Source of the DNA: Microbacterium testaceum
GTDB lineage: Bacteria > Actinomycetota > Actinomycetes > Actinomycetales > Microbacteriaceae
Length of the DNA stretch: 64,000 nucleotides
Reading direction: 5' to 3'
Assembly (NCBI RefSeq): GCF_029761935.1
Contig: NZ_CP121699.1
Span: 2,604,001 to 2,668,000 of the forward strand
Positions 34,319 through 42,776 of this stretch are shown here, one piece after another. The notes beneath the pieces are model-generated. The model was not told the DNA's origin, searched no databases, and saw only the letters and a program-made list of their open reading frames with translations. The position numbers were made by a program, and so were the translations under genes. Every line of letters starts with the position of its first letter. The stretch's first letter is position 1.

Positions 34319-35587
34319 GTGATCGACCTGACTCTGCTGCGTGAAGATCCCGAGCTCGTGAAGCGCTCCCAGATCGCCCGCGGGGAGTCGCCGGATTCGG
34401 TGGACGACGCCCTCGCCGCCGACCGCGACCGCCGCGCGGCCATCACCGCCTTCGAAGAGCTCCGTGCCGCGCAGAACGCGCACGGCAAGCGCGTCGCGCA
34501 GGCGCCGAAAGAAGAGAAGGCCGCTCTCGTCGCCGAAGCGAAGCAGCTCAGCGAGCAGGTCAAGGCCGCGCAGCACGCCGCGACCGAGGCCGAGGCGGCA
34601 GCCGAGGCGGCCCTGGCGAAGATCGAGAACATCGTCATCGACGGTGTCCCGTCGGGGGGCGAAGAGAACTTCGTCACGCTGCGCACCCACGGCGACGTCC
34701 CGACCTACGACTTCACCCCGCGCGACCACCTCGAGATCGGCGAGCTGCTCGGGGCGATCGACATGGAGCGCGGCACGAAGGTCTCGGGCAGCCGCTTCTA
34801 CTTCCTCACCGGTATCGGCGCGCGCCTCGAGCTCGCGCTCATGACCCTCGCCCTCGACCGCGCGCTGCAGGCGGGCTTCACCCCGATGATCCCGCCGACG
34901 CTCGTGCGCCCCGAGGTCATGCGCGGCACCGGCTTCCTCGGCCAGCACGCCGACGAGGTCTACCACCTGCCGAAAGAAGACCTCTACCTCGTCGGCACCA
35001 GCGAGGTGCCCCTCGCCGGCTACCACATGGACGAGATCCTCGACTTCGAGCGCGGCGCCAAGCGCTACGCCGGCTGGTCCACCTGCTACCGCAGCGAGGC
35101 CGGCTCGTACGGCAAGGACACCCGCGGCATCATCCGCGTGCACCAGTTCAACAAGCTCGAGATGTTCGTCTACACCGACCCGGCCGACGCCGAGGCCGAG
35201 CACGACCGTCTCGTCGCGATGCAGGAGCAGATGCTGCAGGACCTCGGCCTCGCCTACCGCGTGATCGACGTGGCCGCCGGCGACCTGGGGTCCAGCGCCG
35301 CACGCAAGTTCGACATCGAGGCCTGGGTGCCCACGCAGGATGCCTACCGCGAGCTGACCAGCACCTCGAACTGCACGACGTATCAGGCGCGCCGACTCGA
35401 GACCCGCTTCCGTCCCGCCGACGGCGGCAAGACCCAGCCGGTCGCGACCCTCAACGGCACGCTCGCCACCACGCGGTGGATCGTGGCGCTTCTCGAAACG
35501 CACCAGCGCGCCGACGGATCGGTCACGGTCCCTGAGGTCTTGCGGCCGTACCTCGGCGGGCTCGAGGTCATGGAGCCCATCGCGTGA
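34319..35587 (+). CDS. serS: Seryl-tRNA synthetase
   Basis: 422-aa class II aminoacyl-tRNA synthetase that charges tRNA-Ser; two tRNA-Ser genes lie 6-8 kb downstream. The N-terminal coiled-coil arm that reads the long variable arm of tRNA-Ser spans about residues 30-105. Catalytic motif 2 is [24 protein letters not shown] and motif 3 is [18 protein letters not shown]; the serine-specific [10 protein letters not shown] is visible. The GTG start is six bases after TAGGAT (34307-34312), with no ribosome site: leaderless. Overlaps the HAD gene by GTGA. Confidence 0.97.
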
Positions 35588-38421: not shown

Positions 38422-39171
38422 ATGTCTGCACACAGCCCCGCATCACGCCCGAGAGTGGCACGCCGCCTCGGCGCCGCCCTCGTGGCGGCCCTGGCCCTGT
38501 TCGGGCCCGTGCTCGCCGCGCCCGCGGCGCACGCCGCCCCTCCCGCGGCGATCCTGTCGCTGTCGGTGAGCCCCACGAGCGTCACCGCCGGTGACGCGCT
38601 CGTCGCCACCATCACCGGATCCGGTGTGAGCGACCTCTACTCGTACGACCTCGAGATCACGTTCGACCCGACGCTGCTCGCTCCCGCGGCCGATGCCCCG
38701 ACCGGTCCCGCCGGGGGGTTCACCTCGACCGTCACGGGCCCCGGCTCCCTCACCGTCTCGCACACCCGCCTCGGTACGTCTCCCGGTCTGAGCGGCGCGA
38801 GCGGTGTGATCCTGGCATCCATCCCCCTCCGGTCGCTCGCGGCCGGGTCGGCCGTCGTCGAGCTGTCGTCGGTGCGTCTCGTGTCGTCGACCGGTGACGT
38901 CGTGACGGCCGCAGCGGTGGCCTCCGGAACCGTCGTCATCGCGGCGGCACCCGTCCCCGTTCCGCAGCCGTCCACGTCGTCACCCGCGCCCTCGCCCGAG
39001 GCGTCCGCGTCCGCGTCGGCGACTCCCGCCCCCGCGGCGAAGGGCCCGGGCGACCTGGCCACGACCGGTGTCGATGCGACGCCGTGGTGGATCGCGGGTG
39101 CTGTCGGTGTCGCCCTCGTCGCCGGAGGCGCTCTGTTCGTGCTCCGCCGCCGTCAGGCGGTGCAGGAATGA
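38422..39171 (+). CDS. Cohesin-domain protein with LAXTG sorting signal (surface scaffold)
   Basis: 249-aa exported protein. Signal peptide to about residue 37 (ending AAPAAHA). One cohesin-type beta-sandwich (about 40-175), beginning LSLSVSPTSVTAGDALVATI, with the cohesin-like LYSYDLEITFDPTLL. A Pro/Ser/Ala linker follows, then LATTG (about 212-216), a hydrophobic helix and RRRQ: a sortase signal of the LAXTG type used by class E sortases. Cohesins bind dockerins; the next gene encodes a dockerin-bearing amidase, so this protein is probably its wall anchor. The ATG at 38422 has GAGGAG about 12 bases upstream. Only one cohesin module, unlike cellulosome scaffoldins. Confidence 0.83.
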   Translation: MSAHSPASRPRVARRLGAALVAALALFGPVLAAPAAHAAPPAAILSLSVSPTSVTAGDALVATITGSGVSDLYSYDLEITFDPTLLAPAADAPTGPAGGFTSTVTGPGSLTVSHTRLGTSPGLSGASGVILASIPLRSLAAGSAVVELSSVRLVSSTGDVVTAAAVASGTVVIAAAPVPVPQPSTSSPAPSPEASASASATPAPAAKGPGDLATTGVDATPWWIAGAVGVALVAGGALFVLRRRQAVQE

Positions 39172-39212
39172 CCGCGTCTCACTCGTCCGTCTTCTCCCGC
39201 GAAGGATCCGTC

Positions 39213-41030
39213 ATGACCCCCCTGGCCCGCCGTGTTCTGGCCGTGTCCGCTTCGATCGGTGTCGTCGTCGCCGGGGCCGTCGTCGCTCCGACCGCAGCTC
39301 TCGCCGCCCCCGCCCCGGCCGCGGCGCCGTTCCTCGCTCCGTACTACACGGAGCTCGACGTCACCGGCGATGCCCAGGTGACCACGGCCGACCTCGAGGC
39401 CCTCGCCCCGCACCTGGGGACGACTTCGAGCGAGGCCGGATGGGCGGATGCCGCGCGCTTCGACCTCGACGACGACGGCGCCGTGACGGCATCCGATCTC
39501 GCCCTACTGTCGGAGCGCATCATCTACGACGACGGTCCGTTCCAGATCGTCGAGGCCGATGCGGTGGCGATGCAGGCGGCGATGAACGCCGGGGTGATCA
39601 CCTCGGTGTCGTTGACCCAGCAGTACCTCGACCGCATCGCGGCCTACGACAAGACCGTCCGTCCGACCGGCGTGCGCCCCTTGAACTCGATCATCACGAC
39701 GAGCACCGTCGCGCTGAAGGCCGCCGCCGCGGCCGACGAGATCCGCGCCGAGAAGGGCATGACCGGGATGCTGCTCGGCATCCCCGTCGCGCTGAAAGAC
39801 AACTACAACACCGCCGACATGCCCACCACCGCCGGCTGCGGCTGCTGGAGCGGCAACCAGACCTCGACCGACGCGACGATGGTCAAGGGGCTCCGTGCCG
39901 ACGGAGCCGTGATCGTGGCGAAGGCCTCGATGGACGAGTTCGCGATCAACCTGTCGTCGCAGTGGTCGGCGTTCCAGCCCGACGGCACCGCGCTGACCGT
40001 GTCGAGCCCGTACGACACGACCCAGACCTCGGGCGGATCGAGCGGCGGCACGGGAGCCGCGATCGCGGCGAACCTCGCCGGCATCGGCTTCGGCACCGAC
40101 ACCGGTGGGTCGATCCGCATCCCCTCGACGTACAACCAGCTCGTGGGCGTGCGCCCGACGGTCGGTCTCGCCAGTCGCGACGGCATCGTGCCCCTCGCGC
40201 TCTCGCAGGACACCGGTGGTCCCATCGCGCGTTCCGTTCAGGATGCCGCGATCGCGCTCGACGCGGTCGTCGGTGAGGACACGGGTGACCCCATCACGGC
40301 GCGCCAGGCCGGCAAGGTGCCCGAGACGTACACGTCGTACCTCGACGGGGAGTCGTTGACGGGCAAGAAGATCGGCTACATCGCGTCGATGCTCGGAACG
40401 AACCCCACCACCCAGCGGCTCTTCGCCCAGGCGAAGGCGTCCATGGAGGCACGGGGTGCGACCGTGGTCGCCGTCACCGCACCCGACGGGTTCTCGGCGA
40501 TCGTGGGAGAGGGGAGCGGCAGCGGTCCCGAGTTCAACCACGACCTGCAGAACTACATCACCGCCTACCTCGACCCGACGGTGAGCGCGCGCAGTCTGCT
40601 CGCCATCTCGCAGTCGCCGAACATCGTGCCGGGGCGCGCGAGCAACCCGTACGGTCAGCGCGCCGCCGTCACCGAGTCGACCTATCAGGCATGGGCCGGT
40701 CCGCAGGGCTCGCACACGCTGCAGCTCGCGAAGGGCAAGCAGATCATGACCGCGTTCATGGACGACCAGAAGCTGGATGCCGTCGTCTACCCGACCGGCA
40801 ACCCTTACGGCACCATCGGCACGAACATGCGTCTGAGCCCGAACACGGGTCTGCCCGCCGTCACGGTGCCGATGGGCCAGGGGCTCTCGACCGAGGCGTC
40901 GACCGGGGGAGTGAACCTCGAGTTCCTCGGCCGCGACTTCGCCGAGGGTCCCCTCCTGGGCCTCGTCTACGGCTTCGAGCAGGCGACGCACGCCCGCACG
41001 ACGCCCGCGGCGTACGGACCGCTCGGCTGA
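39213..41030 (+). CDS. Secreted amidase-signature hydrolase with N-terminal dockerin module
   Basis: 605-aa exported enzyme. Signal peptide to about residue 31. Residues 45-105 form a dockerin: two EF-hand-like calcium loops, DVTGDAQVTTAD (49-60) and DLDDDGAVTASD (84-95), with Asp/Thr at positions 1, 3, 5, 9 and 12 as in type I dockerins. The rest is an amidase-signature domain: Lys195 in PVALKDNYN, GGSSGG with the cis-Ser near 276, and nucleophile Ser300 in GTDTGGSIRIPS. Such enzymes cut amide bonds of small substrates or peptides; target unknown. The ATG at 39213 has AAGGA six bases upstream; an earlier ATG at 39168 overlaps the cohesin stop but gives a poorer signal peptide. Likely held on the surface by the cohesin protein. 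Confidence 0.88.
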   Translation: MTPLARRVLAVSASIGVVVAGAVVAPTAALAAPAPAAAPFLAPYYTELDVTGDAQVTTADLEALAPHLGTTSSEAGWADAARFDLDDDGAVTASDLALLSERIIYDDGPFQIVEADAVAMQAAMNAGVITSVSLTQQYLDRIAAYDKTVRPTGVRPLNSIITTSTVALKAAAAADEIRAEKGMTGMLLGIPVALKDNYNTADMPTTAGCGCWSGNQTSTDATMVKGLRADGAVIVAKASMDEFAINLSSQWSAFQPDGTALTVSSPYDTTQTSGGSSGGTGAAIAANLAGIGFGTDTGGSIRIPSTYNQLVGVRPTVGLASRDGIVPLALSQDTGGPIARSVQDAAIALDAVVGEDTGDPITARQAGKVPETYTSYLDGESLTGKKIGYIASMLGTNPTTQRLFAQAKASMEARGATVVAVTAPDGFSAIVGEGSGSGPEFNHDLQNYITAYLDPTVSARSLLAISQSPNIVPGRASNPYGQRAAVTESTYQAWAGPQGSHTLQLAKGKQIMTAFMDDQKLDAVVYPTGNPYGTIGTNMRLSPNTGLPAVTVPMGQGLSTEASTGGVNLEFLGRDFAEGPLLGLVYGFEQATHARTTPAAYGPLG

Positions 41031-41038
41031 GCTCCGGC

Positions 41039-41074
41039 GGCGGCCCCCGGGCGCGAGTTCGCCCGGGGGCCGCC
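41039..41074 (+). terminator. Hairpin terminator after the amidase gene
   Basis: GGCGGCCCCCGGGCG (41039-41053) and its complement (41060-41074) form a perfect 15-bp stem with a 6-nt loop, eight bases after the stop and before tRNA-Ser. Confidence 0.8.
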
Positions 41075-41132
41075 TCGCGCGGGTCCTGTCGTGCGACCTC
41101 GAGTTCGCGGCTCGGTAGACTCGGGTCGTTCG

Positions 41133-41217
41133 GGAGGGTTGTCCGAGCGGCCGATGGACCTGGTCTTGAAAACCAGTGGGCAGCAATGTCCCGTGGGTTC
41201 GAATCCCACACCCTCCG
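41133..41217 (+). tRNA. tRNA-Ser (anticodon TGA)
   Basis: Acceptor stem GGAGGGT/ACCCTCC, discriminator G, anticodon loop CTTGAAA within stem CTGGT/ACCAG, a long class II variable arm and the GGTTCGAATCC T-arm. No CCA encoded. TAGACT (41116-41121) is a likely -10. Reads UCA and other UCN codons; charged by SerS (34319-35587). Confidence 0.97.
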
Positions 41218-41486
41218 CAACGACGAAGCGGGCCCCGCAGGGGTCCGCTTCGTCGTTATGGCCGGCTGAGCGGGATGAGAACGTCGTTGGGCCCACGCCG
41301 CGCGACTCGTCGACCCGGGTCGTCTCGATCACGCACAGTCGGGACGCCTCCCGCACCCCGCCCCCGGCGAAACGCCCGATCTTCACGGGATTCACAGATC
41401 CTGATCCCTAGTATTACTGCGACCTCCGGCCGTGCCGTGGGTCGACGTGCTGCCGGGCCGGTGGCATCCGTCTCGAAAGGACCCGA

Positions 41487-42776
41487 GTGAGCAAGACCTC
41501 CACCCCGCGCGGTCAGCGGACCGTCGCGCGCCACGGGCGACTCACCTCGCCGGGGCCCCTCGCGCAGCTGTTCCGCGGCGTGGCGATCGCGCTCGCCGTC
41601 CTCCTCGTGTCGGGTGGTGCGGTCCTCGCGTACGCCGCGGTCGACCTCACTCAGAGCTTCACCGCGGACGCGGTCGAGCTCAAGGGTCAGCCGGCGGTCC
41701 CGCCGGACCTCGGCGAGCTCAAGGGCGGCGTCAACATGCTCCTCGTTGGCACCGACGAGTGCGAGCCCAGCTTCGCCCAGCTCTTCGGCGATCGCTGCAC
41801 CGGTGCCGATTCCGAGGGCAGCCTCAACGACGTCAACATGCTGGTCCACATCTCCGACGCGCCCCGCCGGGTCACGGTCATCTCGTTCCCGCGCGACCTG
41901 ATGGTGCCGATCCCCTCGTGCACCGACAAGGACGGGAACGAGACCTCGGCGATGAGCAAGCAGCAGATCAACTCCGCGTTCTCGTACGGTGGCCTCTCGT
42001 GCGTCGTGCAGACGGTCTCGGAGCTCAGCGGCCTCGAGATCCCCTTCGCCGCCAAGGTCAGCTTCGGCGGGGTGATCAACATCACCGACGCGATCGGCGG
42101 TGTCGATGTCTGCATCGCGAACGGGATCAAGGACCGCTACACCGGCATCGACTGGCCCGCCGGCATGCGCACGGTGCAGGGTCTCGACGCTCTGCAGTTC
42201 CTCCGCACCCGTCACGGCGTCGGCGACGGCGGCGACCTGGGGCGCATCTCGAACCAGCAGCAGTACATGTCGCGTCTGGCCAACAAGCTGAAGAGCCAGG
42301 ACGTGCTGTCGAACCCCGCGACGCTCTACAAGCTCGCCTCCACCGCTCTGCGCAACGTCGACCCGTCGACCTCGCTGACGAACCCGCTGACGCTGGTGCA
42401 GATCGCCTCCGCGGTCAAGGACGTGCCGTTCAACGAGATCGTGTTCATCCAGTACCCGACGTACACCGATCCCTCGAACCCCAACCGCGTCGTGCCCGAC
42501 CGTACCGACGCCGACACGCTGTGGGCGGCCCTCGCCGCGAACCAGCCGCTGGAGCTCTCGGGCAACCTCAGCGACGGCAACGGCGTGGTCGTCGACCAGA
42601 ACGCCACCCCGGCGCCCACGCAGGCTCCCGCGCCGGTCGACACCGCCAGCCCGGCGCCCACCCAGACGGCCCAGGCCTCCCCGGCCCCGACATCGGACGC
42701 GATCCAGCTACCGAGCGGCATCGCCGGGCAGACCGCCGCGCAGGCGACCTGCTCGAACGGAAACGTCCGCGGTTGA
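41487..42776 (+). CDS. LytR-CpsA-Psr (LCP) family cell-wall glycopolymer transferase
   Basis: 429-aa membrane-anchored enzyme that attaches wall glycopolymers to peptidoglycan from lipid-linked donors. One TM helix near residues 31-52 (GVAIALAVLLVSGGAVLAYA), then the LCP domain with GGVNMLLVGTDE, RRVTVISFPRDLMVPIP and the Arg-rich site ALQFLRTRHGVGDGGDLGRISNQQQYM. A Pro/Ala/Thr tail ends the protein. GTG at 41487 with GAAAGG upstream; TAGTAT (41409-41414) is a possible -10. Flanked by two tRNA-Ser genes, without cotranscription. Confidence 0.93.
   Translation: MSKTSTPRGQRTVARHGRLTSPGPLAQLFRGVAIALAVLLVSGGAVLAYAAVDLTQSFTADAVELKGQPAVPPDLGELKGGVNMLLVGTDECEPSFAQLFGDRCTGADSEGSLNDVNMLVHISDAPRRVTVISFPRDLMVPIPSCTDKDGNETSAMSKQQINSAFSYGGLSCVVQTVSELSGLEIPFAAKVSFGGVINITDAIGGVDVCIANGIKDRYTGIDWPAGMRTVQGLDALQFLRTRHGVGDGGDLGRISNQQQYMSRLANKLKSQDVLSNPATLYKLASTALRNVDPSTSLTNPLTLVQIASAVKDVPFNEIVFIQYPTYTDPSNPNRVVPDRTDADTLWAALAANQPLELSGNLSDGNGVVVDQNATPAPTQAPAPVDTASPAPTQTAQASPAPTSDAIQLPSGIAGQTAAQATCSNGNVRG

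Follow-up and report, generated by a model that had tools for sequence, protein, structure and literature searches.

Cohesin–dockerin binding is the glue of the large cellulose-degrading complexes of anaerobes, and the actinobacteria with which we are concerned here are mostly aerobic dwellers of soil and plants. In the toxin complexes of Clostridium perfringens single cohesins occur, with X82 cohesins in NagJ and NanJ and a dockerin in NagH (PMC12997984), and in Ruminococcus flavefaciens ScaE is a single cohesin with an LPXTG motif that is linked by sortase (PMC5301203), as far as the available portions of these papers tell. Both halves of the idea put forward here therefore have a precedent. 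We consider two neighbouring genes in a stretch of 64,000 nucleotides from Microbacterium testaceum (the window; assembly GCF_029761935.1, contig NZ_CP121699.1, positions 2,604,001 to 2,668,000 of the forward strand), whose host genome is a single contig of 3.38 Mb. The first gene encodes a cohesin protein and the second an amidase with a dockerin, and we think it likely that they form a one-receptor/one-enzyme cohesin–dockerin pair that displays the amidase on the cell wall.

An original prediction, made from the letters of the window alone, had described the cohesin protein as one cohesin between a signal peptide and an LATTG sorting signal, and had placed 41 nt downstream the gene of an amidase whose signal peptide is followed by two dockerin loops (residues 49-60 and 84-95) and then by an amidase-signature domain with Ser-Ser-Lys motifs. 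All of this was borne out: the coordinates agree, and the profile search that it proposed matched both cohesin and dockerin, with PF00963, NF058582 and PF00404 each above cut-off and PF01425 at 260 bits (Table 1). In the 249-residue cohesin protein a linker rich in Pro, Ser and Thr joins the cohesin domain to the LATTG signal, and no catalytic domain was found there by Pfam. A glycosidase NCBIfam match of this protein was set aside as spurious (15.6 bits against a cut-off of 900, covering the linker and sorting signal only). Neither protein has a carbohydrate-active domain by Pfam at E<=1, in keeping with the prediction that no sugar-active domain is present. The motifs of the amidase are K195, GGSSGG at 274-279 and a DTGGSIR containing S300, the Lys and the two Ser presumably having the roles known from the amidase family. 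Its best match among solved structures is the peptide amidase 1m21 (E 8.4e-71) and its best NCBIfam match is PRK08137, at 320 bits and short of the equivalog cut-off of 534; among the 25 matches listed no other named NCBIfam model scores above its cut-off. As a guess, the enzyme could act outside the cell on peptide amides or amino-acid amides, or else on an amide in the wall.

Both modules of the window's pair have modest Pfam scores (26.8 and 31.2 bits), and calmodulins head the matches of the dockerin profile among solved structures, as might be expected if the domain calls were false and an immunoglobulin-like surface protein lay beside an EF-hand amidase. That explanation was already disfavoured and we regard it as highly improbable: both modules exceed the curated Pfam cut-offs, a cohesin profile built from the pairs matches the ScaB and NagJ cohesins, and the predicted fold of a relative is the jelly-roll of cohesins, with cohesins at the top of its structure-match list. 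The window protein has the two calcium-loop repeats with acidic ligands that define a dockerin, and Asp is invariant at columns 11, 15 and 22 (loop 1) and 50 and 61 (loop 2) in 68 aligned named loci. These 68, also used for co-variation, come from the 80 loci of the amidase-led draw described below; L183, L202, L206 and loci without both matches were dropped (G, L and P numbers are our handles for genomes, loci and proteins).

One of the three sortase-domain matches in the window's genome is a class E sortase (NF033747, 235.9 bits, cut-off 160). The cohesin protein has the LAxTG motif, membrane stretch and basic tail of a class E substrate, and class E sortases are, according to PMC5148588, specific for LAXTG. 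A mechanism can be proposed in which both proteins, whose signal peptides are visible in the sequence, would be exported from one short operon; class E sortase, to judge from motif and enzyme, would attach the cohesin protein to the wall at its LATTG motif, so that the one cohesin stays exposed. The N-terminal calcium-loop dockerin of the amidase would bind this cohesin, as comparative genomics suggests, and the docked enzyme may stay at the surface and hydrolyse an amide of a peptide, an amino acid or the wall. The original prediction had further proposed that calcium lets the cell keep or release the docked enzyme, which would be an additional feature of such a device. In a few lineages the same pairing has become one polypeptide.

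In the window's genome one cohesin was found, adjacent to the only dockerin found; a search for other dockerin proteins, suggested by the original prediction, returned none in the whole genome. Co-occurrence was followed in three surveys that share some genomes, covering 198 genomes of the genus, 398 of the family and 198 of the order. With Pfam models at E<=0.01, cohesin and dockerin were each detected in 25 of the 198 genus genomes (23 and 17 above cut-off), and 17 genomes had matches to both, which in 16 of these fall at one locus. Besides an odd contig in G109, there are 24 cohesin loci, all with an amidase downstream or in the same frame and with a dockerin preceding the amidase, often at too low a Pfam score. 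The dockerin-amidases on the Pfam dockerin list alone have a cohesin upstream, the locus in G171 being cut by a contig end. We also built profiles from the loci themselves: A1 from 26 cohesin rows (leaving out L060, L071, L077 and L083; L082 is without a cohesin on its contig) and A2 from 26 of 31 dockerin loci (leaving out L060, L062 (degenerate dockerin), L071, L077 and L082). With these, cohesin and dockerin were found in 32 and 33 genomes of the genus survey (32 in common), in 31 and 30 of the family survey (29 in common, each in 17 of 85 genera) and in the same nine genomes, from five families, of the order survey. Over the three surveys 66 genomes, the window's included, have both modules; two have a dockerin only (G138, a truncated locus, and G253, whose dockerin lies 154 nt from the contig start) and two a short, spurious cohesin only. 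Cohesin matches lie on the same contig and strand as a dockerin and no more than 4 kb from it in 65 of 69 cases, the remaining four being G171 and G351, split by contig ends, and two spurious matches. Of the 67 credible cohesins, 65 thus adjoin a dockerin-amidase. Hypergeometric values for co-occurrence, which ignore shared descent, are 4e-36 (genus), 1e-40 (family) and 9e-16 (order). Given that the single cohesin and the single dockerin of the genome adjoin and that the pairing recurs in 66 genomes, their adjacency in the window is not chance. The conserved co-occurrence that the original prediction had called for is thus seen in related genomes, and also beyond Microbacteriaceae.

A draw led by the amidase gives a similar view. 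Named species were scanned with the amidase-only patterns MDEFAIN and Q[AS]AMNAGV, and 80 of 98 relatives were kept. A dockerin match is present in 79 of the 80 loci, two of them partial (L202 and L242), and a cohesin in 71; of the nine without a cohesin, seven are cut off by a contig end that lies no more than 450 nt from the match, and L242 and L261 are decayed. Genera with the pair include Microbacterium, Cellulosimicrobium, Curtobacterium, Cellulomonas, Leifsonia and Herbiconiux, and further Mycetocola, Georgenia, Isoptericola, Oerskovia, Demequina and Frigoribacterium. Among protein relatives of the amidase, 5297 in number with 8000 candidates scored, the dockerin was detected by A2 in all of the best 120, which were the ones listed; precomputed Pfam annotation marks it in only part of these. 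The dockerin of the Cellulosimicrobium amidase P0059 scores 19.6 bits, and such dockerins may have been overlooked because they fall under the Pfam cut-off of 22.9. A short contig in a Stenotrophomonas maltophilia P13 record (L233), probably contamination, carries a dockerin-amidase that groups with Microbacterium.

The amidase tree, midpoint-rooted with 101 rows (L202 was dropped, and rows with fewer than 420 residues past the dockerin were not taken), shows the order of cohesin gene then amidase gene in 81 rows, on both sides of the root. Three lineages have the modules within a single open frame, and two have the genes in the reverse order. The rows with a fused, anchorless cohesin-dockerin-amidase group together in a single derived clade of Microbacterium (7 of 7 rows, support 93), and this form accounts for 13 of the best 120 of the 5297 amidase relatives. 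In G531 a single open frame runs through cohesin and sorting signal into an internal signal peptide, followed by dockerin and amidase, and in G768, on a long branch whose position in the tree is unsure, through dockerin, amidase, cohesin and LAVTG. The amidase comes first in G345 and in Isoptericola G629 (the same record as L203). Cohesin and amidase share a frame in G153 (L202) since the cohesin end is out of frame, and this was not counted as a true fusion. Fusions and swaps of order keep the modules together, and this is the strongest evidence that cohesin and dockerin work together. The pair is real, conserved and one-to-one, and most probably serves the display of the amidase on the wall.

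Several findings weigh against this reading. The profiles A1 and A2 were built from the pairs of this genus and so find their relatives, the Pfam searches being the independent start, and the survey statistics take no account of descent, an adjacent pair being heritable as a block. Position 3 of the first calcium loop is Asn or Asp in classical dockerins and Thr in 67 of the 68 aligned loci, a deep-branching clade has Glu at position 1 of that loop, and the dockerin of G153 (L202) has lost most of its second loop. AlphaFold2 folded both modules well in the cohesin–dockerin segment of one natural fusion (pTM 0.61) and gave them no confident mutual placement; another fusion, modelled whole (pTM 0.52), had good cohesin and dockerin modules, a poorly modelled amidase part and again no confident interface. 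These runs yield no interface or interdomain error measure and so speak neither for nor against binding. Cohesin and dockerin co-vary weakly once the amidase is accounted for (residual r 0.125, permutation p 0.0185). The lack of a confident interface and the weak co-variation would suit a dockerin that is a mere calcium stalk or binds another partner, next to a cohesin that binds something else, their adjacency arising from regulation or co-inheritance. We consider this improbable, given that 66 genomes have both modules, that three lineages carry them within a single open frame and that in two their order is swapped.

Also to be weighed against display on the wall is the lack of an anchor in some lineages. 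Among the named cohesin loci, 66 of 71 have a terminal signal of the LxxTG type together with a membrane stretch, and in 54 of these 66 the motif is LAxTG. The other five are L257 (LTATG and a membrane stretch), L183 and L202, which are in frame with the amidase, and L203 and L206, which have no anchor, the cohesin of L206 being split between frames. In a deep-branching clade (L074, L079, L083, L084, G328 and G380) the cohesin protein has, besides a membrane stretch, a second region that resembles a domain, and no LPxTG-type sorting motif is visible by eye. Of the two pairs present in G136, one is of the type of this clade and one of the common type. In the anchorless fused clade a sorting signal is absent, and L069 and the fused proteins among P0021-P0043 have in its place a conserved linker rich in Lys, His and Arg (LPGKRHAASKAD..). 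Because this clade and the Isoptericola cohesin (G629/L203), which ends without an anchor, both occur, wall docking is not universal across the pairs. The interpretation in the original prediction is partly supported: the class E sortase is indeed encoded, and the profile matches and the conserved co-occurrence came out as it required, but the confident predicted complex that it had also asked for was not obtained.

The anchorless fused clade hints that the pairing does more than anchor, at any rate within that clade. Its two modules lie in one chain with a conserved linker and no sorting signal, the G768 chain itself carries a sorting signal, so that docking would be unneeded for attachment, and still has both modules, and the Isoptericola cohesin is anchorless; from these one might argue that the cohesin chiefly folds, stabilises or regulates the enzyme, with anchoring secondary or lineage-specific. 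We find this rather unlikely as a general account, since 66 of the 71 named cohesins have a sorting signal and membrane stretch and since, in the rows sampled, fusion without an anchor is confined to one derived clade. A further possibility, which we put forward tentatively, is that of an undescribed one-receptor/one-enzyme cohesin–dockerin system across Actinomycetales in which the contact goes beyond tethering, the cohesin also controlling or protecting a surface amidase that acts on wall or environmental amides. On this tentative account, the contact would do more than tether because it is kept in single-chain fusions, whether anchored or anchorless.

Some loci depart from the common pattern. 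The amidase of G138 begins partway through the dockerin, and a search of that whole genome at E<=1e-4 found no cohesin. In Microbacterium sp. MYb45 (L242 3091-4671) a truncated dockerin-amidase lacks a signal peptide, with no cohesin in the 3-kb flank that was searched; this locus sits between dnaN-like and recF-like genes, named by eye. The Microbacterium testaceum StLB037 record (L261 2968-4260) has the window's own flanking genes and is without the cohesin, the dockerin and part of the amidase. There, through a deletion or an assembly error, a remnant of DUF2254 runs straight into mid-amidase; the cohesin gene and the dockerin are gone, together with the greater part of DUF2254. Joint loss could be read from G138, L242 and L261, yet a single deletion accounts for each. 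The weak cohesin of G109 (L075, G109:C5) was rejected as probable contamination, its contig carrying a 1595-residue repeat protein unlike the other cohesin proteins, and the cohesin matches of G272 and G557 are spurious (46 model columns, with a stop inside). Weak dockerin-like repeats occur in proteins of more than 1100 residues at L080, L081 and L085 (G071, G137 and G128), in which the amidase motif was not found.

The features of the window's locus are collected in Table 1. An in-frame ATG at 39168 overlaps the stop codon of the cohesin gene (ATGA), so that a 620-residue form of the amidase is possible. The hairpin beyond the amidase gene is probably the end of a two-gene transcript. The genes flanking the pair encode seryl-tRNA synthetase, a HAD hydrolase, a DUF2254 membrane protein, tRNA-Ser, a LytR-CpsA-Psr protein and an alpha/beta hydrolase, and there is no obvious functional partner among them. 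Among those compared, the nearest amidases to the window's are from uncultured Microbacterium (97% identity) and, next, Microbacterium testaceum strains.

Table 1. Positions in the window of the cohesin and dockerin-amidase genes, their parts and some neighbours
Feature	Position	Strand	Evidence or remark
Seryl-tRNA synthetase, upstream of the pair	34319-35587		
Cohesin gene	38422..39171	+	249 aa; alternative upstream start GTG 38386
Signal peptide of cohesin protein	38422..38535	+	cleavage after AHA, by eye
Cohesin domain, residues 47-173	38560..38940	+	PF00963 26.8 bits, cut-off 24.1
LATTG sorting motif	39055..39069	+	NF058582 31.7 bits, cut-off 27
Membrane-spanning stretch and basic tail of sorting signal	39070..39168	+	sequence; same design in 66/71 named cohesin loci
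Likely ribosome-binding site of amidase gene, GAAGGA	39201..39206	+	6 nt upstream of ATG 39213
Dockerin-amidase gene	39213..41030	+	605 aa; 620 aa if ATG 39168 used
Signal peptide of dockerin-amidase	39213..39305	+	cleavage after ALA, by eye
Dockerin domain	39357..39521	+	Dockerin_1 PF00404 31.2 bits, cut-off 22.9
First calcium loop DVTGDAQVTTAD, residues 49-60	39357..39392	+	sequence; loop Asp conservation in aligned loci
Second calcium loop DLDDDGAVTASD, residues 84-95	39462..39497	+	sequence; loop Asp conservation in aligned loci
Amidase-signature domain; K195, S276/S277, S300	39531..41009	+	PF01425 260 bits; NF006006 320 bits (below its cut-off); 1m21
G+C-rich hairpin 3' of amidase gene	41034..41084	+	-46.9 kcal/mol, z -3.8; no T-run after
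tRNA-Ser(TGA), downstream of the pair	41133-41218		
LytR-CpsA-Psr protein, downstream of the pair	41487-42776		

A two-gene device with one receptor per non-carbohydrate enzyme recurs in many soil and plant actinobacteria. If binding is confirmed, the pair would be a simple natural system for studying the specificity of cohesins and dockerins. It might then also supply a tag for wall display in actinobacteria, and would allow an explanation of what stray cohesins do to be put to the test. We found no published account of this pair in a search that left subscription papers largely outside, so an earlier description is possible. No literature was found on Microbacterium with a cohesin domain and dockerin, nor on a secreted amidase-signature peptide amidase; papers joining cohesin, dockerin, amidase and actinobacteria (for example PMC5817068) are, in their available parts, not about this pair, and the available part of PMC7071664 proved not relevant to it. 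A 2024 survey of bacteria that display cellulosomes (PMC11557425) does not use in its main text the words actinobacteria, actinomycet-, microbacterium or amidase. In the available parts of two genome papers, dockerin and cohesin domains are reported absent from Cellulosimicrobium cellulans F16 (PMC4562250) and from three Cellulomonas genomes (PMC3544764). The pair is found in other strains of Cellulosimicrobium cellulans (L212, L214 and L215) and, in Cellulomonas, in C. telluris, C. phragmiteti and C. avistercoris, and its presence in these other members of the two genera qualifies those statements, the comparison being with other strains and species.

The known systems closest to the pair include non-cellulosomal cohesins and dockerins, such as the Archaeoglobus fulgidus cohesin 2xdh. 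To our knowledge, no one-to-one operonic cohesin–dockerin pair with its enzyme, conserved across an order, has been described as such. The window's amidase is like the peptide amidase 1m21 and PRK08137 in its amidase domain, to which it adds a signal peptide and a dockerin. LAxTG is common to the class E sortase substrates in the available part of PMC5148588 and to the cohesin protein, which has LATTG; the anchored protein here is a docking module and not the enzyme itself. The C. perfringens cohesins sit on glycoside hydrolases, according to the available part of PMC12997984, whereas here a cohesin protein free of any catalytic domain, with a sorting signal, is paired with an amidase, and the cohesin is not carried on a glycoside hydrolase as in the X82 type. 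Membership of a cellulosome was rejected: one cohesin and one dockerin, that of the amidase, were found in the genome, with no multi-cohesin scaffoldin and no carbohydrate domain. The likeness to ScaE of R. flavefaciens lies in a sortase-fixed wall anchor with a single cohesin that holds dockerin proteins. In the available part of PMC5301203, ScaE holds a whole cellulosome with several partners, whereas here there is one enzyme, no scaffoldin, no carbohydrate enzyme and an LAxTG signal. By this analogy, the pair would work like docking of the ScaE type cut down to one enzyme, and is not a cellulosome.

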